Source: Clytia hemisphaerica
Lineage: Eukaryota; Cnidaria; Hydrozoa; Leptothecata; Clytiidae
Length of the DNA: 64,000 nt
NCBI GenBank assembly: GCA_902728285.1
Contig: CACVBU010000726.1
Coordinates: 2,187,248-2,251,247, forward strand
Reading direction: 5' to 3'
Below are positions 12,666 to 60,289 of the stretch, one piece after another; position 1 is the first letter of the stretch; the number at the start of each line of letters is the position of its first letter. The notes under the pieces are model-generated. The model was not told where the DNA came from. It made no database searches and saw nothing but the letters and a program-made list of their open reading frames with translations. The position numbers and the translations under genes are program-made.

Positions 12666-13196
12666 AATTAACTATATTCGAATTTATTCGCGCTGTGGTG
12701 ATAACTCACGGTACCCCTCCCTCACACGCGATAAAGACGTGTCCTCTGATTAGGAAACGTTTCCGACACGAACGACGGAGAGAAATGAATAGATGAAAAA
12801 AGAAACGAGGAGCAGTTGTATGGTGGCCGAGAGCTGCCATCCAAAAAATTATAATAATTAAAAATAAAAATGAATATAAAATGCACTTTAGATATAAAAA
12901 TACTTTTTTAATTCAAAATAAAATGCTTCTCTAGGCCTAGAACTGCCAAAAAAAAAATAATTTCTTTTTTCAAAACAAAATTGAAATAAAAATGAGAAAA
13001 AAATCCGTTGTGGCCGAGAGCCGCCAAAAATGTCTTTCTGCTGGATGACTGCCAACTGCTCTTTCAGGCAATGACTATTATTGACGATGGTTGTTAATGG
13101 GATTGTGAAGAAGAAAAATAAGCGCGGAATGAAAAGAAAATTTATTTTACACAAAACAAAATCAGTCAAAGACAAAAGAAAAGCTGTTGATTGAAA

Positions 13197-16100
13197 ATGT
13201 CTAAAAGGAAGCAAGAAACTTTTGATAAGAAAACAGATTGGAGAGAGCATGCAGGGAAAGTGAAGGTGAAGCGAACCTCGAGAAATGGCAAATCAAGCAA
13301 GGATAAAACAACACCAGCTGCAATTATTATTCCACTTGAAGAGACTATTTTAAAACATGGTGAATTTAAATGCATATTACATGCCACAGACCCAGCAGGT
13401 GCTCTCAAGAAATATCCAAGATTAACATCTCAAGAGTACGTCAACTTTGAATTCGATGAGATTACATTAGAAACCATCAAAGAGGCATGTAATAAACATT
13501 TCAGACACAAGTCTGAAAAAGTCTTGCCACCTGGTATGACATGTGATCTTTTAACATCTGATCTTGGTCCGTCGTGTGAAAAGTTGAGCCATTTAGAGGA
13601 AAAACTTGCCCATGTCAGGTTCATAAAAATCCAAGACCGATCCAATGCCAATGGAAATATAGTCAACTCAGGTAATCGTTACGCACTTTTCAGAGAAAGG
13701 TTGATTTCGCGGCTAATTCTTGCGATTAAAGGCTAGTTGAGCTCTTTTTAGATAGCTAATGCATTTTCCAACCTTTTTCATTCATATAAGCTATCTTCGA
13801 TAAGCCAAAATTCATTAAACAACATTTTTCAACTGCGTAATGATTAGGTGCCAAATCTGCAATTATTCCGCATTTTTCCCTATCGATTCCGCGCATGCGG
13901 AATGATTGCGGAAGCTGCGTAACGTTTGAGAACCCTGATTACGCATCCCTAATCTAATCGTTACGCAGGGTTATTGATCAAAGGGAAAACAAATAAATCA
14001 ACAAATAATTGAACATTGACATAATACTTTTCTTTTTTTCTTATGTTTTAGATGTACTCGGGAGCATTTCATTAAAAAAATCATTGAAAATACATTTGCG
14101 ATTCACTTTTTTTACGTTCAAGTAATGCTTGTGGACCCTTTGGTAATCGGGACAAATCCACTTGTGATTGGCTTGTGGTATCATTTCCAGCGGACCACAT
14201 ATGATATTATCCACTGGAAAGATATCTTCGTCAGACCGGGGCTTCTTTAGGATATTGTCAGATGTCCCGAGCTTTCTTTCGCAGCAATCCATTGCTAATG
14301 CGACAGTGATGCCTTCCTCGTCATGAATGAATCTCTTTTTCGCTTGTCCGATGTACAATGCATCGGACTTGTCGTGCGAAAAGATGACGCCAAACCAACT
14401 ACCAACAATTTCATCTTCAGACATATTAGGAGCAGAAAACTTCCTCCAAAGCTCCTCCATGACATAGAGCCTGGAAAAATCAGACCTGAATGGTAATGGC
14501 TTATCAATCACCGACTCGCTCTCCTGCTCTCCTTCCGACGACAATCCTTCTGATTCTTCTGTCTCCATTCCTTCTTCAAACACCTCTTCGTCCATCTCGT
14601 CGAAACTCTCCTCGCCATAATTGTATTCATCATCTAATTTTTTCTTCTTTCTGGCTTTAGCAGCCTTCTTCTTTCCAGTCGATTCCTTTTTGGCGGCCTC
14701 CGTCTCCTTCTTCTTTTCCTCTCGCAAACGCTTTCTTTCCGCTTTTTGTCTTTCCTTTTCCTCTTTTTCAGCTTCTTTAGCTTCTATGGCATCCAAAAAT
14801 TCCTTTTGAGTAACAACCTATAAAGCAACAGATGAAATTATATTAGAAACGTCTTTATCTTCGAAGAAAGGTTTTTGCATCGTCCGCCACAACTGCACAG
14901 TTACTATGATTATGTCTATGAGAAATATATCCCAGAACAATATTATCAATAAGATGAAATGTTATTTGAATTTTTCTTACCTGACCACGTAGATCCAACT
15001 TTTGTCTCTTTCTGTTGGCCTTCTTTTCGTTTTGAGGCTTTATCCGATTAAGGAAGAGCTCCTCAAAAGATGTGTTACTCGGTGTTGTGTTAGGTGTTGT
15101 GTTGGACGTTGTGCTAGGGTGTGTTTGTTGATGCTGTTGTTGTTTTTGATCAGGTACTAATTCCCATTTCGGGATCCAATGGAATCCTGGGGGCGTTGGT
15201 TGAAATGGGTAAGGTCCAATCAGCGTCAATAAGGTCTCCTGATTGGACTTTGACGAAATGTTACGTGCAGCGTTAGGTTCCGCCGATTTCGGGGTTGAAA
15301 CATTGCATGATCGAGGTTGAATATTTTCTTTATTGGCGGTAGAAATTGATGGCTGGTCCAGATCAGGTTGCGGTAATTTTGAGGGGTCGGTTGTTGTATC
15401 CGTCGAAGTAGCGACATCAAATTCAATTTCACTTTAGAAGAAAGAAAAGCAAGTGCAAGCAAGTATCAAGGTAAGGTTAGGTTTAGTTTCTGCTGTCATT
15501 TACGATTCTTATCAACTAATTTAGTCTTGCTAATTTACCCTGCTATTAGATAATCAATGTCACTTAAGTTGACAATTGTTAAACCCGTTGAAAAGTACCT
15601 TATGTTTCATTTTCAAAGAGTTCTTTAATAACCTTTTACGAGTAACAATCTTTATGAACTTACTCGTCAGCCAGCTTATCCCAGTCTAATGGTTCACCAG
15701 TTGCCTTCCATTCCACAAACTTTTTCAACAGTCTCGGGTCCAGTCGTCGTTCTGGATATTTGGAACGGTCTACAGGAAATATTCCTGAAAAAAGGAATTA
15801 TAAACCATACTAGACTGTAGTGTCATATCATTTCGACACCCCTGTATCAGTCTTTCGACCAGTTAGCACAAATCTTAATATCTTAGCTCACGGGGACTAA
15901 AATTTATTCTTCAAAAAATAGCAATCCCCTAGTAATTGAAAAATACCTGTTTTCTGAAATCCTGAGATGGCATTTTCTTTTGTCATTCCACGGGGCCAAA
16001 CTTTACACAATTCGTTGACAAATTCGCATTTAGTCAAGGGCTGTTTGATCCCCAAAACTGAAACCCGGTTATGTAGATTCTTGTCCCACGCACGTTTCAA

Positions 16101-19100
16101 TGGACCGAAACATGAAACGTCAAGCGGTTGTAGGACATCAGTCACATGAGGCGGAAATTTAATGATTATGATATCCTCTTCAATCGCCTTCTTGATGACA
16201 GCAATGGATATATGAGTCAAGTGCCCGTCAAATAGCAGCAACAACGGGCGTTCAGTGACCTTCTCGCAAAACAAGAAAAACCATTTAGTAAATGTTGATG
16301 TCTCCATCCAACCTAGTAAGAAAAAGAGTAGAAAGGTAAAGTATTTTAATATAATAATATTTAATAAAATTTTGAAACAATTTGAAATCCCTACTGAAAA
16401 GTAGCAATATACTAATTGCCATCTACAGTAAACCTGATTACGACAAGATTGTCAAAATAGTAGTAGGTAAAGTATTAAAGAAACATACCATTTTCAGACT
16501 TCCCATACCATGTATTGGGTAAGGCCTCATCTCCATACCAAGAGGTCAAAATGTTCTTCCCTTTGAAAACAATCAAGGGATCGAGCACTGTACCATCAGC
16601 ACAACTAACGCCCAAAACCGTGATGTTTTCTCGACCCGCGCCATAGCGCATTCTTAGCGCTTTTTCACCCTGATGAAGTTAAGAGAAAGGAATATATAGA
16701 AAATACAAGTTACGATTTGGTACTTTTCTATCTAATTATATGAAGATAAGCCCGTCCTCCATTGAGTGAATCAAATGCTAAAGATATAAAAATAATGCTG
16801 TACACATTAAGATCAGTACTAACCTTGATAGTGACAACTTTTCCTTTGCTAGGATCGGTAGGGAATCCACTTTCATCACAATTCCAAATCCTTGATTCGT
16901 CTATTTCTGGCCTCTCCTTTAAAACCTAGAATATAGAGATGGTGTTTCTTAAATTTAAATGAACGATTCAAAGCTAGAGAATTTGCCTGTCTGAAATTAG
17001 TTATTTCATCAAAGTAGAGAGTAAAAAATCTATATCTAGTATTCACCTGCTCGATTTTATCAAAAAAATCGTAAATGATGAAAGGGTTGGCTGTTGCGGA
17101 TTTTCGTGGGGCGCTTATCATTTCTGCTTTCTTGTTAGAGAGCTTATTTCGTGCCATAAAATTTCCCATCCAGTGCATTCCCGGGCGGTTATCATTCGAC
17201 TTGAATTCTGTCGGGAAGATCTTGTTCATAGTCAAATAGTCTTGCACAATATCCTGATTATAAAAGAAAGATAAAAACATGAGGAAAACACGTAATTGAC
17301 GAGCTCGATCCTACGAAAGTAAAGAATCTCAGAATTTACGTTTGACAAAAACTGACATAATTACCAGAATGTTGTCTTTTGTGGGGCAAAAGCCATGGTT
17401 GCAAACAACTCCTATGCACGTAGCCAATTCTTCCTCAGTCTCGTCACCCAAAGCATTCCTATGGTGTTAATAAGAAAAACTTGCATAAAAATTAAGCTAT
17501 ATACGCACCCTAACAAAAACATCAACCTTTATAAAAAGAAATTCGTTAGGAACGCTGGGCAAAAGTATTGTCACTCAAAGTAACCTTCCAGTGCAATAAC
17601 TAGATACCTTCTTCCACCTCTTCCAAGCTCCTTATTGTTGTTTTTCTTTTTGAGCCTAAACCTAAGGGTCGACTCATCTACCCCGTGTTTTTTTGCCACT
17701 CCACGGATACTAACACCTGGAACACTCTGGTATTCATGGATGGCGTTTGCCATATCTTCCTCTACCCATTGATTTTTTGCTTTAACTTTTACTTTTTGAA
17801 AGTTTTTTTTCTTTGCCATTATATACTTTTTTATTTTACTAAAAAATAGAAAACAATTATAATTCAATTGAAAATACAATATAATAAAAAAGATAGAAAT
17901 TTAGCTCGTAATCGTAGCACATGTTTACTTGAAGAAGGTCTTGAAAGGAAAGAAATCTTCATTGAAAAATCCCTCGTGAAAATATGAGAGAAAGCATTGT
18001 TTGAAAGTAGCCAATCAGTGGATCGGAAAACTGTTAAGAAAACCAATTGGCTATTAAACTGTGTTGAAAAGATATTACTTGAAACAATGTATTGGCGACT
18101 TTAAGCTTGAATGGTAACTTGAAAAGGTGCGTAATGATTGGGCTACCCTCGTTAATTTTACGCACCTAATTGATCCGCGGCTCTTGTTATTTATCACGGA
18201 ACATTCAAGAAAAAACATTTGGTGGGATAAAACGTACTTGAATAGGCTGTTTCTTAGCAACAACCATTTGCGCGCTATCTTGTACCCAGATCTCCTCAGT
18301 TCAAAAGTTACTTCATCCTTCTAAACTATCAAAATGGTATCGCCACAGCGCATTTTCTTTAAAGCGAATTTTGGCGAGCGGGAAGTCAAAACAGAAACAA
18401 ATTATTGGTACAAAAGGTAGGGAAATGTTTTGGCTTTCATAATAATTTTACTTCAAGGTTAGAAACCAAGTATATCATGAAATATTGGCGATTCAAAAAG
18501 TGCGTAAGAATTAGGAGTGCGTAACGATTACCCGAGTTGACTATAATGAATATGAAAGCACTCGCCATAGCACTACCACTACTACTCAATCTACTACTAA
18601 CAAGATGATTGGCCCCTCTCACAACTTCTCTACCAGCACTAAATTGCCGAAAATACTGAAAAGTGCACCACCACCTAAAATTTTAAAATCAAAAATGGTG
18701 GCACCACCCAAAAGTCTTGGGGTATCCTCCATGTTGAAATTAGGAAAGCCTATAATTAAAATAAATTCTTCATTCTTGAATGTTGAATTAAGTGACTTTG
18801 AAATAACAAACAGTGGATGGTCCAAGCCAACTGTAGTAAAATTTAAGGTAGGAGAGACACCATTTGCATCCGGAGGTTTTCGTCACGCATTCCGAGCCAA
18901 AACAGAACCATTTGACGGGAAAGAATATGTACTTAAGAAATACACTGCTGAATCGTTGAAAAATCTTTACAGACTGGAAGAAACTCCAAATGCCCATGCC
19001 CGAAAGTCTGTACAATTGAATGCACTTGCTTCAAATTTTGCAGCTCAGATGAAAAACGAATTGCCCAATGAGTATCTCTGTATGGAGTACAATAGTCTGA

Positions 19101-19486
19101 TGCTTGGTACAGTAATGGAAACAAAAGAGATAGTCACGGTGGAAAGATTTATTGAAGGTCAATTTCTTAAGTATGTAAACAATGATGGTAATGTTATTCC
19201 AACTAATGGGCTTATGCAAGACATGGCAGAAGCATTCAGTCACTTCACTTTTGCAAAATCAAACAGTCAACTTATGGTTTTAGATATTCAAGGGTCAAAT
19301 GAAATTATGTTTGATCCAGAGGTTGCTACAGTTGGGGATACCTATGATGAAAACGGATCTCTTAATTTTTGTATGGGGAATATGTCCAAGGAGGCTATAG
19401 TAACATTTTTTCGTATGCACAAGTGTGGGACATTGTGTCAACTATTGAAAATAGACAGTTTGAAAATAGTTGATGTTAATGAATAG
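13197..19486 (+). CDS. Transposon-borne alpha-kinase (MHCK/EF2K family), split by a pogo-like element
   Basis: The kinase domain lies at 18605-19486. It has the glycine-rich FASGGFRHAFRA, a putative ATP lysine in EYVLKKY, VERFIEGQFLKYVNN, AFSHFTF, the catalytic-type MVLDIQG and DPEVAT. It ends with HKCGTLC, which matches the HxCxxxC half of the zinc site of alpha-kinases. The N-terminal exon (13197-13671) contains EFDEITLETIKEACNKHF, MTCDLLTSDLGPSC and HVRFI, of unknown function. A pogo-like element separates the halves. Splicing CTCAG|GTAATC (donor after 13671) to CCCGAG|TTGAC (exon from 18537) gives 474 aa in frame. Without splicing, translation could start at ATG 18605. Substrates are unknown; family members phosphorylate Ser/Thr. 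It lies convergent to the integrase. Confidence 0.88.
13662..18541. mobile_element. Intact pogo-like transposon nested in the alpha-kinase gene
   Basis: The 25-bp terminal inverted repeats start GTCAACTCRGGTAATCGTTA (13662-13686 and 18517-18541, one mismatch), with a TA target duplication (13660-13661 and 18542-18543). Degenerate GTGCGTAA motifs recur near the right end (18127 and 18500). It encodes one spliced transposase on -, opposite in direction to the alpha-kinase gene it interrupts. TA duplication, pipsqueak-type HTH and DDD catalytic core place it in the Tc1/mariner superfamily, pogo branch. Confidence 0.93.
14041..17819 (-). CDS. Pogo-like transposase (HTH-psq plus DDE_1), nine exons
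   Basis: It catalyses cut-and-paste transposition of its own element. Exons on -: 17819-17608, 17458-17365, 17253-17047, 16925-16824, 16669-16489, 16312-15947, 15784-15664, 15431-14981, 14817-14041. All have GT-AG borders and agreeing phases, giving 836 aa. The N-terminus has a pipsqueak-type HTH (EYQSVPGVSIRGVAKKHGVD), then a second DNA-binding segment around RPGMHWMGNFMARN. The catalytic core has D in WNCDESGFPT (about 188), D in LLLFDGHLTH (about 294) and D in VLQPLDVSCFGP (about 330), matching the DDD of pogo/Tigger. A low-complexity linker and a Lys/Glu-rich coiled coil follow. A C-terminal segment with GSWFGVIF and ALYIGQAKKRF may be a small beta-barrel. No stop or frameshift is seen. 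Confidence 0.93.
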
Positions 19487-19836
19487 GTTGCAATATGACT
19501 GATAAAAAAAGTTGAGATTTTTTTACAAAAGTTGTCGAGATTTATTAATGACAATTGTTGAGATTTGTTTTAACTTACACAAGGACGATTGATGAAAGTT
19601 GTCTAAAAAAAATGTGCAATTTTAATCACACTGAAACGTTGCGTTATTCTTTGTTTTTAAATTCATCTACCCTACTTGTACTGTTTCTATTGATATCATA
19701 AGTTATGACCTTGCTTTTTCAAGCCCTAGGAGAAAGGCCTGTTTCTATGTTTAGAGTTTCAGTTTCTTAATTTTTTTTGCTATTTTTTAAAAACAATCTA
19801 TCTAAAGAATTTATTAGGATGATTTTATTCCCATAG

Positions 19837-20276
19837 GGACCATTCAAAAAGTATGTACGCTCGAGAGGGAGGAGGGGGGTACTCCCAAAAGCATATGAAA
19901 GCGTACATGGGGGAGGGGGTCCTTGAGGAGAAGTACGTACGCTCGTAATGTTTCCTAAATGTCTTTCTTGAGAGAAAACCGCAATATTTTCACATCAAAA
20001 AATTGTTTTTGCAATTGATATTTTTCATTTCTCTTTTGGTATTTTTGTTCATCTTGTAGATTCTTTTAATTTCTTGAGACTTTGTTATAAATATGATTGG
20101 ATACCTACTTATTCTAATGTTACAAGAGTTTCAAGTTTCGACTTTGGTTAGGGGGTTGTACTAAAAAGCGTACGTACGCTGAAGGGGGGGGGGGTACACA
20201 TAAAGCGTACGAAAGCGTACAATCGGTGAGGGGGAGTCAAAAATTTTTTCGAGCGTACATACTTTTTGAATGGTCC
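19837..20276. mobile_element. 440-bp MITE between the convergent alpha-kinase and integrase genes
   Basis: The 28-bp perfect terminal inverted repeats start GGACCATTCAAAAAGTATGT. Inside are GTACGTACGCT palindromes and G-runs. Each half repeats a GCGTAC...GGGGGAGGGGG pattern, so the element folds on itself. No target duplication could be assigned with certainty. It occupies the non-coding space between the stop codons at 19486 and 20348. Confidence 0.85.
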
Positions 20277-20347
20277 AATATAGAATATCCAAGTATTAGT
20301 TCTCTTATAGGTGTACTTTTTATTTTATTTCATTTAAAATTTTTTGT

Positions 20348-22180
20348 TTAAGACAAATATTTTACATCGAGGTAAGCCTTAACATATTCTTGTGAAGGTA
20401 TTTTTGATGGGTCTTCAATTATTTGTGTAAACTTCAATTTCGTATCCAAGTCCAAGTAGTCTTCTGGTGTTTCAAGAATCCCAGACAATTCAGCTACCTC
20501 TTGGAGTTGCTCTGGTTTGATTTGAAAGCCTATAAGAAAAATGAAAATGTGACTGTCTTTTACTTCTTTCTCTGTAAAATATTTTAAGCTATGTGATTCG
20601 AATTAGTCAATAAATCAGAGTCTGCCGGGAATTTGGTGGTCAATAAAGATCTATCTATATTTCGTCTTTGTTTACCATTATTGTTACACGTTATTGTTAT
20701 AATTTCTAGATAAATTTCCTATTTTTCAACAAAAAACTATACTTACCACATTTTTCCATATCATATTTCTCTGGGAATGAATAAATATGATTTGGTATAC
20801 CATCAGGTAAATAACATCCTCTTTGCTTTCTTATTCTATGCGTGTTCCAAACCAGATCTTTAAACTCATCAAGTTCTCGTTGGATTAGTGGAATCATAAC
20901 GTACTTCATTGCATCTCTATTAGAAATGATAGGACTTGATTTAAGAAATAAACTGATCAAAACATCCAGTCCAGTCTATTTTATTAATATTTCTCAACGA
21001 CCTTAAGAGAAGTCCATCATTTTGCTAAACAAAGCCTCATAATAACCTATTTTTATAGGTTTTTAAATAGTACATTTTACAACCCCGGGCAACTTATTTG
21101 ACCCCTCCTATGTTAATTAAGCATCAAAGAATGAGGTTGTACGTATTCCAGAAATAAAATGTACCTATCTTGTTCATTTTCTGGATCATAATGATGCTGA
21201 TCTTTAAGCCAAACGAGTCCCTCTTTGAAGAATTTTTCAAGTCGCTCATGTAACTCTCGCCACCAACGTTCAATCTGTTATTTAAAGTCGAGAAATTCGA
21301 AATATTAATTTTATATTTTGCCTAAACCCCTTCCCTTTAAATAAAATTTGCTTGACATCATCGCTAAAAATAAAAAACTTTATCCTTTGCTCATTTGACT
21401 CAGACCTCATTGTTTATAACTCAATACCTGGTTAGTTGTCGACGGACCATAAATAACAGAATCACTTGGCTCATCAATCACCTGGTCTTCGCTACAAGTC
21501 TTGTTTCGTAGATACGATTGCATTGTTGCCATTGTCCCAGTTTCTGAACCTTTATCAATTCGCATAAAATTAGGCATACAATTAGATTTGGATAGGTAGT
21601 CCCAATGCCACTTTCCAATCAGCTGTGGGTTGCTGTTTGTATCCCATACTTTTAACCAAAGAATTTTGCGACTGGCTGTATCAATGCAACCATAGATAGC
21701 AAGGGGAAAGGTCCAATTTTGATATCCCATTAATTTATCATGGCCGTCTAGCGACCACACCCAATTTGAACCGGCTGAATAAAAGTGACCTCTTGGTTTC
21801 TTTTTGTTTTGAAGTCTTCGCTCCTCTAGTAGGCCAGGGTTAGCATCATACATGACGTTATGGACTACATCTCGTGGCACATTCATGGAATATTTCTGCC
21901 GAATTTTCTGGTGCATAGCCCTGTATCCGAGCAAAGCACCAGGTCCAGCCATTTCTTTTGTCACGGCACTTTCTATGCGTTCAATTGGAATTGTGTAATC
22001 AGTGTATCGAATGCCAAAATGTGCTAATCGACGATCAAGAGATCTCAAACTCCATGGGTATTGAGAAAAATCTCTCTGCACAAAGTCCAATATTTCCTCT
22101 CTTTTGGTTCTTGAAGCCACATAGTTTTTTAACGCAGCTTTAAGTTCGTAGTTATTCTTCCAACTAAAAGAGTACGCCAT
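20348..22180 (-). CDS. IS3EU-like DDE integrase/transposase, four exons
   Basis: It probably cuts and joins the ends of the 12819-22617 element. Exons on -: 22180-21428, 21274-21165, 20916-20747, 20529-20348; phases agree and give 404 aa. The N-terminal region has HTH-like spacing (RTKREEILDFVQRDFSQYPW). An rve-type core follows: first Asp in WSLDGHDKL (D145), then AIYGCIDTASRKILWLKVW, second Asp in MRIDKGSETG (D209), and the catalytic Glu in NQIERWWREL (E253). An intron falls just before that Glu. The C-terminal 150 residues are conserved-looking but have no motif I recognise. The start is the ATG 417 bp from the right terminus. It resembles integrase-core proteins found in many invertebrate and fish genomes. 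The class is confident; the IS3EU label less so. Confidence 0.87.
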
Positions 22181-22967
22181 TTTGCATTCTCTCAGGCAGA
22201 TCTAAAAAGGTCAGAAAATTCAGGGTTTTTAAATCGAATGTTTTCTTTTTTGGCGCGAAATATTATTCACCATCCATTTGAATAATATATACAATCTAAA
22301 AGTCGTACCTCAAAACAACTAGCGGGAAAATTATTCCAACTTTCAATCTATTTGAAGTACGCAATCATTCTAAAGGTTATAACTCAAAACAACTATCTGT
22401 GGCAGTTCTCGGCCTGTCGTATTTTACATTTTTATTTCAAAAAGATTTTTATAAATGACAGTTGTCGGCCTAGCAAATATTTTTATTTTTATTTTTAAAA
22501 ATACATTTAATTTTGATTTGGCAGTTCTCGGCCAATGAGTTATTTAATTTTCAACTTTAATCTTTTATTTCTATTTTAAAATAATATTTTCTTATGTGGC
22601 AGCTCTCGGCCACCATACAGTTGGCCCTGTCAGCTTGTTAGTTGGGTGTTTAAGATAATAACGGCAATTATTTCTTTTTCGGCAACCTATTGCCGAAAAC
22701 AGCAGTTTTCCAACGATAACACGCTGAATCAGCAGAAAAGTCAAAGTAAATAAATCAAAATTACCGTTTGTATTATAAACACTCGACTGCTTGTATCATG
22801 TCATGTAAGTATTTTTACTGTTTTATACCATGCTTTTAAACTGTCATCATTAGAAACTGCACATGTAAGTTTTTCTTGTACAACTTTGTATGAATTTGTG
22901 ATACCTAAGCAAAAACAATCAGTGAAGAAAATGAATTCAAGAATGATTGACTTTTGCTTTTAGGATT

Positions 22968-29667: not shown

Positions 29668-30540
29668 ATGTATCGTTTGGTTTTAAATTGTTGGAGAAAA
29701 AACAAACCTTTGTTTCTTTGTGGTTTATTTTCTGTTGCTTTCTTTATCTTTTACACCTTGAATGTGCAAGGATGGCATTGGTACAAGATGGCAAAACAAG
29801 AGGTTTGTGAGACTCCTGATAACTACATGAATGAACTCAAGTCTTTATTTCGTGATGCTCATATTATCTTAACTAAATTTGGTTTGACACATGTTTTGAT
29901 ATATGGCAGGTAAGTTTAACATTTCCTTGATTGCAGTTTTGGAATTCGACCTTTTTAAAAAAAAATTTGATTTTGAAGAATCATTCCTTTTGAAATAAAA
30001 AAAGATCTTGGTTTAATGTCTTAGTTTGGATATTTCTCACTTTTTCCATAAAAGAGTTTCACTGCTCAAACCATTTTATACTCTTTAGCACAAGTTTCTT
30101 ATTTTAATAGTTTATTCGGTGCAATGCGCTTTGGTGGTCCTCTTCCTTGGGACAATGACTTTGATCTAGCAATATTGTCCGAAGAAGTTGCCCAAATTGA
30201 TGAATCAAAATTTCTCCAAGAGTTCTATGATCGAGGAATAAAAGTGATGTATAGGCATTGGAAAGGAGAGTATGTGATTTCAAGAAATAAAGCACACGGT
30301 GATTTGATGATATTTTCTGAGACATGGTTCGGTGATCGAGGAAGGACTGGAATTGAACCATGGGTGTTTTTCATACACTTTCGTAATTTTCATCAGGCGC
30401 CAGCAAGATTGTTTGAGAAGCCGTTACCAAAATTACCTTTTTTAGGAATGAATATTTCTGTACCTCGTGAGGGAATGGAAATTCAAAGGCATTTCTATCC
30501 CAATGATTGGTGGAAGGAAGTAAAGCCAAAAGGCTGCTAA
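29668..30540 (+). CDS. LicD/fukutin-type type II membrane protein, two exons
   Basis: LicD-family proteins are nucleotidyltransferase-fold enzymes; fukutin and FKRP transfer ribitol-phosphate to dystroglycan in the Golgi. Exons 29668-29909 and 30111-30540 join in frame (AG|T) to give 223 aa. A short cytoplasmic N-terminus precedes one membrane segment (about residues 15-32, FLCGLFSVAFFIFYTL). The LicD signature is IYGSLFGAMRFGGPLPWDND followed by FDLAI, with D95/D97 as the likely metal-binding pair. A downstream Trp/His/Arg-rich region (RGRTGIEPWVFF, RHFYPNDWW) is typical of small LicD proteins. The protein is much shorter than fukutin, so it is probably a stand-alone LicD-domain protein with unknown substrate. 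A GT31 enzyme gene follows about 4 kb downstream on the same strand. Confidence 0.87.
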
Positions 30541-34575: not shown

Positions 34576-35712
34576 ATGCCCTCTTTCAGTTTTGGCCTGA
34601 AAGATGGAGGATGGCGCTTACTTTACCGTCGTAAATACACCATTGGCCTTGTTCTAACATTATTAGTGTTTCTTCGGAGTATTTTCTATCATGTACCTGC
34701 TATTCAGTTCACTCTCCGCCAGAACACAAAGCGAGTACCTTTTGTTTACAAAGATGTTGTTATAAACCCGACTGTTGATCACGGTACAAATTTATTTGCA
34801 CTGATATTGGTTAGTTCAAGCCCTCATTCCGAGGCTCATCGTCAGAAACGAGATGCTATCCGTAAAACATGGGGTAATTGTGCCAATCTTCTTAATATGT
34901 ATCGTGAATCACATCACCTACCTAAAGATATAGCTTGTAAACTTGTCTTCTTCATAGCACGCTCAGATCATGATGAGGCTATCCGAAAAGAAGCTAACGA
35001 AAATAATGATGTCTTATTGGTTGACTATACTGATCGTTATTCAGCTATCACTTTAAAATTAATGGTTGCTTTCAAGTGGGCCAGCAGCTTGAACCCATCG
35101 TTCATACTCAAGACAGATGATGATGTTTATATCCACACACCCAAGTTATTTGGTGGTCTTTTACGTGAAACTGATGGTGATTTTTATGGTGGGATTGTCT
35201 TAGAAGGAAGCAAGGTGCAGCGCGAAGTTGGTCACCGGCATTATATATCTAGAGAACAGTACAAAGATGATTATTATCCACCGTACTGCAAAGGAGCAAT
35301 GTATGTGTTCAGTGGTAATCTATTACCAAGGATTTTATACGCAGCTGATTACGTCCCGTACATGCATGTAGACGATGCTTACGTAGGGCTTCTAATGTAC
35401 TACATAGGTGTTGAAGTGGAAAATCTACATTTTTTTGTTCACTTCAAAACAGTTTTTCTAGCATTTCCGTACACTCTTACTGATTGTGCTATTAACCGGA
35501 TCATTGCTATTAGTGATAGTTTCCAAGCAGACATGATTTATTCCATCCATGAGAGAATCAAAGCTTCAGAGAATATGTTGTTGACAAGATATTTATGTTA
35601 TACGGACAGTAGAGCAACAATTATTGTGGTTTGTTTGATCATTATCATTGTGGTCACTGTATATAATGTTTTGAAGAATGCAAGAATCATCGGTTTTCAT
35701 TACAAGCAATAA
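34576..35712 (+). CDS. Beta-1,3-galactosyltransferase-like GT31 enzyme
   Basis: A Golgi enzyme expected to transfer Gal or GlcNAc from a UDP-sugar in beta-1,3 linkage to a glycan. The 378-aa ORF has a type II signal anchor (about 21-40, YTIGLVLTLLVFLRSIFYHV). GT31 motifs follow in order: RDAIRKTWG (92-100), KLVFFIARS (122-130), metal-binding DDD in FILKTDDDVYIH (181-183), YPPYCKGAMYVFSG (234-247) and VDDAYVGLL (265-273) in place of the usual EDVYVG. The length is normal for the family. A second hydrophobic run near the C-terminus (347-366, ATIIVVCLIIIIVVTVYNVL) is unusual and could make it a double-pass protein. Donor and acceptor cannot be predicted. It is the second glycan-related gene in this stretch, after the LicD gene. 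Confidence 0.93.
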   Translation: MPSFSFGLKDGGWRLLYRRKYTIGLVLTLLVFLRSIFYHVPAIQFTLRQNTKRVPFVYKDVVINPTVDHGTNLFALILVSSSPHSEAHRQKRDAIRKTWGNCANLLNMYRESHHLPKDIACKLVFFIARSDHDEAIRKEANENNDVLLVDYTDRYSAITLKLMVAFKWASSLNPSFILKTDDDVYIHTPKLFGGLLRETDGDFYGGIVLEGSKVQREVGHRHYISREQYKDDYYPPYCKGAMYVFSGNLLPRILYAADYVPYMHVDDAYVGLLMYYIGVEVENLHFFVHFKTVFLAFPYTLTDCAINRIIAISDSFQADMIYSIHERIKASENMLLTRYLCYTDSRATIIVVCLIIIIVVTVYNVLKNARIIGFHYKQ

Positions 35713-43000: not shown

Positions 43001-46000
43001 CATATCTTAGTTTTCCGTACCAGAAATATCTGTCCAAGCCCCCGCCTCTATATACGTCAGCAAAACTTTTTCTTGTTACTTTTTTTTTGAGTTCGGACAC
43101 GAGAGATTATTACGTTTAGCTTTTGCTACGTAAAAATAATCTTCAGTTTTTTAAAATCTATTTTGAGCATTCTTTTACGATGCCTACGTTAGATGTTTCA
43201 AAACTTCTATTTTTGGAGGTCCTTGCAATTTGGAGATGTGAGAAAAATATATAAAATAGAAAGTCTTAAACATGAAACTGCCAGTATTGAAACAATAATT
43301 TTCATTGCTTCAACAACGATAAAATAGAAAGTCCATAATTAGAACCTTTCTTACTCGTATGATAATTAAATCGGACCCCCGGTGGGGGGGGGTCCTTTGG
43401 GATTAGCAGTATTTTTGTAAGGTCAATAAAGCATTTATAGATTTTGTAGGTCAAAATCTCGAAATGGCATCTATTTTTGAACTAATTTACATGTAGTTGC
43501 GTGGTACGAAAGTAGTCACAGGTTGACATCTGTTCTGTGTAAGTTTTTCCGTTTCCAGTTTGCTGACGTGTAGGGATGAAAAAAAAAACGGAAAAAAGAA
43601 ATGATTTTCACCGAAGAAAAAAAATCTATTGCAAGTTTCATGCCCACGATTTGCACATAAGGCTTGAAGGAAAAGTACAACGACGAGGGGCTACCTACTA
43701 CAAACACCAACTGAGAGTCTATAGCTTGTTTTGTTCTTTGTTTTCAATGATACCTACCATCTTGTTTTTGTAAAATCATTCCTTCTTTTATACTGTATTT
43801 TTCGATTGCTCAAAGCTCTATAACTTATATTAGGAGTGGGCTATACAGGGTCATTGTCATTTTTTTCGTCAAATCATGTCAAACTAAATTTTCTTTAGCT
43901 CCGTATGGCATATCTAGGCAGGATCAAAAAGAATTTTTGAGATATTTTAAATATAAAAAATGTGGGAGCCCCTTTTCTGGCCCCCAATTTGACCTGGAAA
44001 CCTTAAAAATCATTCAATTTTGCTGCAATTTGGTACAACTTGAATAACAATAATAACATTTTGTCAGTATTATTTAAAAAATTTCATTATCGGACGTTTT
44101 AGGGCGTGACCAAACCCCCAAAAAGGGAAAAAGGATTGGGTAGCTCTAGAAAACTTTGGAATGATATTTTTGCCCTAAAGTTTTGCATACCTACCCTCAG
44201 TTATCTATCTTGACGAATCCTGAGAATATTTCCCAAAGTTAACTCGTTATTTCGTAAATAATTGTTTTGATGTCCGTAAAAAAGGGGAAATATAGACGGG
44301 CTAGGGCTCATTCATAAATTGTGTAATTCAATTGAAATTCCCTCTAGAAATTGGTATTCTTGATCCAAGAACAGTTTTGAAGCCTTTCAGAGTCGAAATT
44401 CATGTAAAAGTTTCAATTTTCCGCTTTCAGATCCCTTTTTACGTCTTCTGAACTTCACTGAGGTAGTGCTAAATTAAGGAAAGTGTTTTTATCACATAGA
44501 GCAAATTGTCGGCAGTTCTACGAGAATTTACATTATTTCAGATATAGAAGAAGTGCTTACAATTCACAAACATAAATTTTGATGGATTTTCTGTTGTTCA
44601 AGATCGTAGAAATAAAAGGTTGTCAAGTTTTCATATATTTAGGACGAGAAGTCACTCCCTCTAAGTAGGAAAAATAAAATTTTTAAGATTTCACAATTTA
44701 TTCATAGAATTATATTTCACAGGTCTATCGACCTCTACGAAATAATTTTAGATTTATAAATTGTCTAATTCTTCATCTGTCGTCCAGTCGTCAGAAGATA
44801 TGGACAGAAGAGAAGACGTTGTTTTGGTCTTTGTCCTAGGTTTTCGAACTAGGCGAAGGTTTGTTCTAGGGCTTCCTCTTACATGCCAAACGAAATCGTC
44901 ATTTTTTGAATTCATTTTTTGCGCCTTTTGGCACATATCTTTAATAATTTTTCTTTCGTTGATGGTGAAGTCGTCTGTGATGCTAAAGCCACCAATTTCA
45001 TTGAATCGTTTCAGCTTATGCAGATTTTGCATTATCCGTTCTTTTTCCTCTATACTTTTTAAGATCAACTTGATTGGACGCCAATGTAGCCCTTTTCTGT
45101 TTTGTCCAATGCGATGATGGTGGGACGGTTTGATATCTTGGACGCCAATGTTACCTAGTATACCTTCAATATCTATTCTGTCTTGTTCCTGTTGTTCCTC
45201 TTTGTTATCTACCTCTAATTCCACCATTCCATGTATAATAATATTTCGTTTTCTTGATTCGATGTCTCTGTCTTCATTCTTGTTTTCTTGTTGATGTTCT
45301 CTCACTGCTGATTTGATATTATCCTTGTGTTTCTTAGTTATTTCAGCGTATGTTTTTTCTGATGATTTTTCTATGTAATTCGTCGTTAGTTTTATTTCTT
45401 CTTTTATAATCTGCTTGGTTTTTATTTCAAAGTCAGCCATCTTATTGGTTAAGATGTTTTCGATATCGTTCTTAAGGCTGCGGTTCTTGGCTAGCTGGTT
45501 GTTGAGCTTTTTAATGACGTCGTCCTTCTTCTCAATCTCCCTCTGCATCATATGATACGAGTTCTCACCTATTTTACTCATTAGAGATCGTGTTATCCGC
45601 ACGCAATTCTGACATAGATATTGTTCGTTATAAGTGTTGGCAAAAATTTGCAGCTGATAAAGCGGTAATTGTGTGCACTCGTAGTGTACCATGCGGTGGC
45701 ATTTTCGGCATTTTAGACGGTTTTGGTCATCGTCATCTGAGCAGGAGGTGAGAGTGCATGTTTGGTTTTGTTTAGCTTCTTCAAATGGTTGTTTTTCTTG
45801 CTTTTTGTCGGTTTTTTCGTTCATGTTTTTGATTTTGCTAAATTTCAACCATTTTTGCACATTTACACTGACAAATCTTCACCTGAAGAGGTAATGTGCC
45901 AAATTTAAGCAGGAAAGAATGTTTTCTCGTCTTTATAGTCAAGCCTTCCTCTTTTTTGCCTTGGGTAGATGGAAAAAGATTGATTTGAGGGCACAAACCT

Positions 46001-58308: not shown

Positions 58309-60289
58309 TCAAACATTTTGTACAAGAGGAGAAAGTTCGTTGTATTCATTTCTATTGTCTCTGACAAAAGAATCGTCAATATAAGCTGAAGGATTTTGCT
58401 TGATTTTGTTCAACATTTTTAACAACTTGTTCATATCTCTATCTGTCAGTTCTTCAAAGAAATTGATTCCATTCAACCAGAAATGCGGACATTGTTTTGA
58501 TTGGACGGCTTCAGTCACGTGTTTGAACAGCCAATAGAAACACTCCTCGATGTCATCTTCCCGCCAATAACTCGGTTCCGTTTTTTCTAACACATGCATG
58601 AAGATGCTTTTAAAATAATACGTACTTAGTTTGTTGCTGCATGGGATGAGAAAATCTTTGACAATAATTTTGAGACAAACAAAACATTTTCTAGCGGTTG
58701 GTTGGATTTCGTTTAGTAATGTGACTTCTGCTTTTGAGAATGAAAATCTCCAAGTTGTTTCCTTTTTATCTTTTGGATGTGACTTCGGAACCAAATGAAA
58801 CCCTTCTTGTACAATTTTCTCAACAAGATCGGAACAAGGCCATTTTCTTGTTCTTGTTAGCCAATCGGAATTTGTCGGCCATTTTTTAGCTTTAATGGAA
58901 AAAGTCATATCTACCAGGAAGCTTGAACCAGAAGTGTGTACTTTTATATTAATTGCTGGTCCTTTTCGACTAACTTTTAATACAGTAAAAAATACATGAA
59001 AAAATAACTTGCTTATTTGCGTACATGCACGTATTTTTTTTCCATTGTCAAGAAAAGGTAATCGATCTTCTGGCATATTCATGATAAATGTGTAAATCTT
59101 GCGTTTGATCTCTTTTGGTGAAACAATTGTGTTTGACATATTGCAATAAATTTTTGCAGAATCAGGCGGCGTATCTTCATTTCTAATTTCGTACTTTTCC
59201 CCACAACGGAAATCTGCTTGATTCATTTCATCGCAAATCATAAAGTCGTAATCAGTTAATAATGCATGTGTATTAGCCATTACACCCTCTTCCTGGCTCA
59301 TCTGGTAGTTTACGGTCAAAGGTATGTTGAGTCTTTCGCATGTGCTTCCAGTTAACATAAGGTCGAATGATTCAGCATATTCAAATTCTTTTGAAATTTC
59401 TTTAACGATCCATTCCATCGTATTCTTAGCGTGATATTTGATATTATTTAATTCAGCTAGAGTTGGAAAATCTTTATCAATTGTCAAAAGTTTTTGTTCT
59501 AATGAAACATTGTGCTTGAAATGAACATTGTAAAAGAGTTGGTATCGTTTGAATAAACGCCTATGCAATAAAGACCTGAAGCAAAACGAAATTAAAGTTT
59601 CTATGGCTAATATCAATGTCATTGAAATAATTATGAGCCATGTTTTGCTGTAATAAAACGGAACCAGTCCCAAAAAAACAATACAAATCACATAATATAC
59701 TATATATACAATTAAGGAGCCAGTCACACAACATACTAATACTGTTCTTGATCGGACAGTTCTGGCCACCACCCAGTAGAGAAAGCTTATCAATAAAGTG
59801 ATGCAAATGATTCCAAATACCTGTTAAAAAAAATTAAAAATCACATTTTCACTTTTAATAACAAAGGAGGCTCTCAAACATGTCAAAAAATATTAGTGGT
59901 TCAAGATCGAGTTTAACAATTACGAGCCTGGAACCCGGGGGAGGGGGCACTCGTAAGGACCGACCCACGGCATGTGCCGCCAAGGGTAGGTTTTTGAGAC
60001 CCTCGAAATGCACTATAAGATTGTACTTTTGATAGAGTCGTGAAAATATTGCAGCTCGTGAAAATATTGTCTCCCAATCCGCGAACGAATAAGCTTAACC
60101 TCGAAATTTAGTCCCCGCGAAAGTTTATCCCATAAGAATACCTATTACACAGCTTACCACGACGAGGCTGAATTTGAAAATAATCGAATAAACCGATGGT
60201 TCATCAATACCATCTGTTGTTGTTTCGTTGCCATTGGTGCTATTCCCCCAATTCGAACGGTTGGTATAAGTTGTCCTATTCATGTACAT
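58309..60289 (-). CDS. Multi-pass Mab-21/cGAS-like nucleotidyltransferase-fold protein
   Basis: Mab-21 proteins share the fold of cGAS; some (cGLRs) make cyclic dinucleotides as immune signals. Exons on - 60289-60158 and 59820-58309 join in phase 0 to 547 aa. The short N-terminus has four N-glycosylation sequons (NRT, NRS, NST, NET), suggesting it is lumenal or outside. Three hydrophobic segments follow (about 31-61, 70-100 and 104-125). The Mab-21 part has the activation-loop motif LMLTGSTCERLNIP (GS about 202-203), the acidic pair in TDYDFMI (234 and 236) and the third acid in FLVDMTFSI (348). These three positions correspond to the metal-binding triad of active cGAS. The C-terminal helical half has KKWPTNSDWL, TWRFSFSKAE and YWREDDIEECFYWLF. 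The cGAS zinc ribbon is not apparent. Ligand and product are unknown. Confidence 0.9.

Follow-up and report, generated by a model that had tools for sequence, protein, structure and literature searches.

A two-gene transposon with an integrase and an alpha-kinase

A 64,000-nucleotide stretch of contig C504 in the 417-Mb assembly G000 (hereafter the window) contains a DNA transposon at positions 12819-22617, in which an alpha-kinase gene on the forward strand and an integrase gene on the reverse strand converge (Table 1). A first-pass annotation had described an element with perfect 21-bp inverted ends (TATGG...CCATA) and a 6-bp target site duplication (TSD), CAGTTG, enclosing a DDE integrase and an alpha-kinase. 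All of these features are present as described, and profile searches identified both the integrase core (rva_4, E = 3.9e-7) and the kinase domain (PF02816, E = 9e-33; 114.4 bits against a cut-off of 21.3). The end motif has six matches in the window, two at the ends and four internal, against an average of 0.09 in shuffled sequences.

The integrase is encoded by four exons and comprises 404 amino acids with a DD63E43 catalytic triad (D145, D209 and E253); the alignment of L038 is not clean at E253. No cysteine occurs in residues 1-145 of the window integrase, which thus lacks an HHCC motif, and a comparison of its exon 1 with solved structures gave no match of value. In the available part of PMC10045372, IS3EU/GingerRoot transposons are characterized by TA..TA termini, usually 6-bp duplications and the absence of HHCC, all of which the window element shares, and the available part of PMC12730594 gives 6-bp duplications and TAYGG..CCRTA ends for the IS3EU families of rusts. 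The duplication is exact in 13 of the 15 end-bounded copies described below. By its ends, its duplication and its integrase, the element is an IS3EU transposon.

Polintons (Mavericks) carry several virus-like genes beside the integrase. Such genes are absent from two uninterrupted 4.9-kb copies, L009 and L010, whose frames of at least 110 amino acids are the kinase and the integrase only. A shortened Polinton or Ginger was rejected on its ends, the missing HHCC motif and this gene content, and is a very improbable identity for the element, although its integrase belongs to the retrovirus-like core families of Pfam and Polintons too have 6-bp duplications (available part of PMC10045372).

Interruption of the kinase frame in the window copy

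The kinase gene is a single open frame without intron, into which a 4,884-bp pogo-like transposon has inserted in the window. The nested element is flanked by a TA duplication (13658-13659 and 18544-18545), has 28-nt ends with one mismatch, and contains HTH_psq (17571-17822) and DDE_1 (15897-16451) domains; the TA duplication and both domains are shared with pogo-like Tc1/mariner elements. L009 and L010 are uninterrupted at the insertion spot, with kinase frames of 469 and 467 amino acids, so that an intron splitting the kinase was rejected. The window kinase is thus broken, contrary to the first-pass description of a complete-looking gene, and its N-terminal part, which had been taken for a separate exon, belongs to the one open frame. 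The pogo-like insertion is later than the element that it broke. L009 and L010 are 99.2% identical to each other, and the window copy shares 98.9% identity with each of them; because its copies are approximately 99% identical, this family has moved recently.

Sixty places in the genome match the ends of the nested element. Most facing pairs are approximately 0.5-1 kb apart and one is 2.1 kb apart; none of the facing pairs listed is longer than that of the window copy (4.9 kb).

Copies of the element in the genome

A search for further copies of the 21-bp ends, proposed in the first-pass annotation, found them at 70 places in the assembly at up to three mismatches, whereas a reversed-pattern control gave none. 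Facing pairs less than 15 kb apart, read from these 70 matches, define 15 copies, a set without the unpaired ends and without a facing pair in C27 whose ends are 34 kb apart. All 15 have TATGG...CCATA ends, the motif by which they were found, and only L015 and C664 lack an exact duplication. Of the 13 copies with an exact duplication, L018 contains neither gene and the other twelve contain both, at least in part. The kinase of L013 carries an internal deletion, yet the duplication around this copy is exact.

The kinase could in principle have been missing from other copies, or have been a single-copy host gene that the element merely surrounds, and the first-pass annotation had named both outcomes as fatal to its proposal. 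Neither describes this genome: the kinase recurs in other copies, and the assembly contains 122 kinase matches in 94 clusters (124 of 139 candidates scored) and 113 PF02816 matches. That the element merely surrounds a host gene was also rejected, given the other copies and the duplications flanking them.

L018 is a 2.3-kb non-autonomous copy with similar ends and a 6-bp duplication. The hexamer CTGGTG is duplicated at both L013 and the copy in C207 (L021 and L022), which are insertions with differing flanks. Reverse-transcriptase-like frames, judged by eye, are inserted in L011 and in the copy in C456 (L025 and L026). Relatives outside this genome were found in neither viral_contigs nor genome_contigs, which says little, neither being a eukaryote collection.

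Linkage and co-inheritance of kinase and integrase

Integrase matches form 138 clusters (150 of 328 candidates scored). A kinase lies within 15 kb of 52 of the 63 integrase clusters of at least 42% identity and of only one of the 75 more distant clusters, the 42% cut having been chosen after the table was seen; the recurrence of the two genes together that the first-pass annotation had proposed examining is thus found among close relatives of the integrase. Conversely, an integrase lies within 15 kb of 53 of the 94 kinase clusters. The 53 linked pairs, in which neighbours within 15 kb may not belong to one element, comprise 22 in convergent orientation and 15 and 16 on the same strand with the integrase downstream and upstream, respectively.

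Of 14 elements considered for the trees, L033 was dropped for its short integrase and L010, L014, L017 and C207 as near copies. In the nine remaining elements with both genes (effectively eight, L015 and C456 being near copies, 93-95% alike), the kinase and integrase trees have identical topologies. The distance matrices of the two genes are correlated (Mantel r = 0.875), with one of 5,000 permutations as high.

Selective constraint on the kinase

The first-pass annotation held that the kinase is under selection and proposed dN/dS (omega) as the measure. Omega is below 1 in three of five within-family pairs, at 0.19 (L009-L036), 0.25 (L010-L036) and 0.23 (L016-L017), each rejecting a value of 1. 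Kinase coding sequence also diverges less than sequence outside both genes in five of six pairs (1.07% versus 3.45%, 1.43% versus 3.29%, 0.81% versus 2.10%, 0.90% versus 1.90% and 1.27% versus 2.75%; P from 1e-5 to 0.03), pairs within one family sharing branches and thus not being independent; the sixth pair shows a difference that is not significant (0.36% versus 0.78%). This comparison leaves out alignment columns in stretches of less than 80% local identity; for the L012 and L016 pairs, introns count as sequence outside the genes, and the kinase frames of L011, L014 and C207 are damaged. Integrase coding DNA is constrained similarly to the kinase in the same pairs. The claim of selection is thus upheld: as a second gene of one IS3EU clade, the kinase is co-inherited and under selection and is not stray cargo.

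Conservation of the alpha-kinase

The D-x-Q-G and HxCxxxC motifs noted in the first-pass annotation are present in the window kinase, and PF02816 matches all ten kinases scanned. In a ten-member alignment (A1), K287, E356, H389, D403, Q405, D413, H448, C450 and C454 are invariant; of these, K287, E356, H389 and D413 lie outside the D-x-Q-G and HxCxxxC motifs that served as filters for picking frames. The catalytic residues are kept across 12 frames in eight sequence groups, and catalytic and zinc residues together in nearly all frames. We take these residues to be the catalytic lysine, the D-x-Q-G motif, the Asp-Pro aspartate, and the zinc-binding histidine and HxCxxxC. They align with those of solved alpha-kinases, which the profile matched at the following E values: TRP-related protein 1ia9, 2.1e-29; MHCK-A, 2.5e-26; eEF2K, 6.3e-24; and ALPK1, 4.8e-12. 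Structure 1ia9 is presumably TRPM7. The element kinase is predicted to be enzymatically active.

The catalytic domain is common to the element kinase and these solved kinases, but the approximately 200 residues that precede it in the element kinase have no shared Pfam match: among the ten members scanned, five families other than Alpha_kinase each match a single member weakly. This N-terminal region can nevertheless be aligned between kinase groups, and C98, C116, GPS (124-126) and RF (141-142) are invariant in it. A degenerate form of EFDEITLETIKEACNKHF, which lies in it, is usable as a marker, so that the marker role given to this sequence in the first-pass annotation stands, without the exon to which it was assigned. 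Lysine and arginine outnumber aspartate and glutamate in residues 1-45 of all seven kinases compared, and a nuclear role for the kinase is a guess.

Possible roles of the kinase

The element is probably a two-gene IS3EU transposon in which the co-inherited and selected alpha-kinase most likely has an accessory enzymatic role. The first-pass annotation had suggested that the element is served by its kinase, and this is a well-supported inference because the kinase recurs with the integrase and is constrained. The integrase would cut and insert the element, giving the 6-bp duplications, while the kinase, made from the element's own gene, would phosphorylate a protein, either a host factor or the integrase itself, by which transposition or expression is limited, and so may aid propagation.

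Several observations weigh against this reading. No kinase lies within 15 kb of 11 of the 63 close integrase clusters, one of which, in C421, holds a kinase remnant (L013), and no integrase lies within 15 kb of 41 of the 94 kinase clusters, which include host kinases and decayed copies. A kinase-free relative, L047/L048 (C334 and C419), has two loci that are 99.6% identical over 3.3 kb of compared sequence, with differing left flanks, a TATGG left end and no kinase in the 4.6 kb examined; because this relative has near-identical copies, the kinase is unnecessary for IS3EU-like spread in general. The kinase-tree node that places C25 has a support of only 0.22. Omega does not differ from 1 in L012-C207 (0.61) or in L009-L010, whose kinases show four nonsynonymous and no synonymous differences, and between-family values were not used as numbers, dS being saturated. 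The invariance of D-x-Q-G and HxCxxxC is partly by choice, given their use as filters, and in L029 (which is not in A1) a stop shortens the kinase frame and D403 is replaced by Y.

Six contigs share one score in the integrase search for the L047/L048 family.

Because relatives that lack the kinase seem to move too, a host target appears slightly more probable than the integrase. Phosphorylation of the element's integrase or transpososome, setting the timing or rate of transposition, is possible but somewhat doubtful: the identical tree topologies and comparable constraint of the two genes speak for it, but linkage alone gives matching trees whatever the target, and near-identical copies of related integrases occur without a nearby kinase.

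DNA transposons pick up host genes, and the kinase could be passive cargo, stemming from one or more captures of a host alpha-kinase gene and left unused. Other alpha-kinases in the genome do look like host genes (L039-L041), but they match the element kinase over just 86-92 residues; this, together with the constraint on kinase coding sequence, the invariance of unfiltered catalytic residues in eight sequence groups and the linkage at 52 of 63 versus one of 75 clusters, makes unused cargo decidedly improbable. L039, L040 and L041 are single-frame proteins of 688-731 amino acids, apparently host genes, with an alpha-kinase C-terminus and an N-terminal part that we take to be VWA-like.

Alternatively, the kinase might mainly benefit the host, which would then have kept kinase-bearing copies. 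Of the 113 PF02816 matches, 27, selected by eye, lie in stop-free frames of at least 380 amino acids and have a domain that is nearly complete, as such retention would allow; the kinase diversifies with the integrase, however, and many copies are decaying through stops, so that benefit to the host is a decidedly improbable explanation.

Features of the window

The features of the element are listed in Table 1. The 440-bp stretch bounded by the 28-nt inverted repeat contains G-rich GTACG repeats. Elsewhere in the window are host-type genes for a Mab-21 nucleotidyltransferase (58312-59823), a galactosyltransferase (34576-35709) and LicD (30052-30537), which suggest an animal host, and a 374-amino-acid frame (44757-45878) with a PHD-finger match under the Pfam cut-off (E = 3.5e-4), which appears to resemble a retrotransposon ORF1.

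Table 1. Features of the kinase-bearing IS3EU element, in window coordinates
Feature	Position	Strand	Remark
TSD, left copy, CAGTTG	12813..12818	.	Matching hexamer at both flanks
Left terminal inverted repeat, 21 bp, TATGGTGGCCGAGAGCTGCCA	12819..12839	+	70 genome places at up to 3 mismatches
Left subterminal end-motif repeats	12933..13026	+	12933-12948, 3 mismatches; 13011-13026, 1 mismatch
Alpha-kinase frame, 5' part, N-terminal region	13197..13659	+	Frame continuous in L009, L010 and L036
Nested pogo-like transposon	13660..18543	-	Empty site in L009 and L010
Alpha-kinase frame, 3' part, catalytic domain, including stop codon	18546..19486	+	PF02816, E = 9e-33
440-bp stretch inside perfect 28-nt inverted repeat, between both genes	19837..20276	.	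Repeat pair
Integrase exon 4, ends in stop	20348..20529	-	
Integrase exon 3	20747..20916	-	rva_4 match under curated cut-off (19.1 bits versus 26)
Integrase exon 2, with E253	21165..21274	-	
Integrase exon 1, with D145 and D209	21428..22180	-	
Right subterminal end-motif repeats	22400..22534	-	22400-22415, 2 mismatches; 22519-22534, 1 mismatch
Right terminal inverted repeat, 21 bp	22597..22617	-	
TSD, right copy, CAGTTG	22618..22623	.	

Comparison with known IS3EU transposons

To our knowledge, transposons with a signalling enzyme of their own are few. The first-pass annotation considered an alpha-kinase an unusual cargo for a transposon, but fungal elements with this pairing have been published: the available part of PMC12730594 states for all TET+ IS3EU that transposase and alpha-kinase are in opposite orientations. 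Among the open-access papers listed, which do not include Repbase entries, no other contains both IS3EU and alpha-kinase, and earlier animal reports are possible. The word kinase is absent from the available text of PMC10045372 on IS3EU/GingerRoot, a point of difference from the element described here. PF02816 also appears in the available parts of PMC4469406, where two table columns give it counts of 79 and 39, and of PMC5295586, where a table comparing wheat rusts includes it; the literature found, as far as it was available, mentions the IS3EU kinase only in passing. What is new here is thus the members from a probable animal, together with evidence that selection maintains the kinase as part of one clade.

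The TET-carrying fungal elements and the window element are alike in their 6-bp TSD and their type of ends, both given for the rust families, and in a kinase opposite the transposase (available part of PMC12730594), an arrangement present in the window, L009 and L010. Against a general rule of opposite orientation, both genes of C25 are on the same strand, as are those of 31 of the 53 linked pairs, some of which are perhaps not one element. In the fungal elements a TET/JBP gene separates the transposase from the kinase (available part of PMC12730594), whereas L009 and L010 contain no third frame of at least 110 amino acids. The hosts also differ, being fungi there and probably an animal here, and the kinases are likened by description and not by sequence.

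Tentatively, and with no stronger claim than that the idea is a reasonable one, the alpha-kinase may have been a functional component since early in the history of a major IS3EU clade common to fungi and animals, acting on a host silencing or repair protein. A single host that offers a kinase-bearing clade and kinase-free relatives, together with co-inheritance and constraint, makes the role of a transposon kinase directly testable. If the proposal is true, the element would be a phosphorylation-assisted transposon, paralleling the TET gene of fungal IS3EU, which is proposed to act on DNA methylation.

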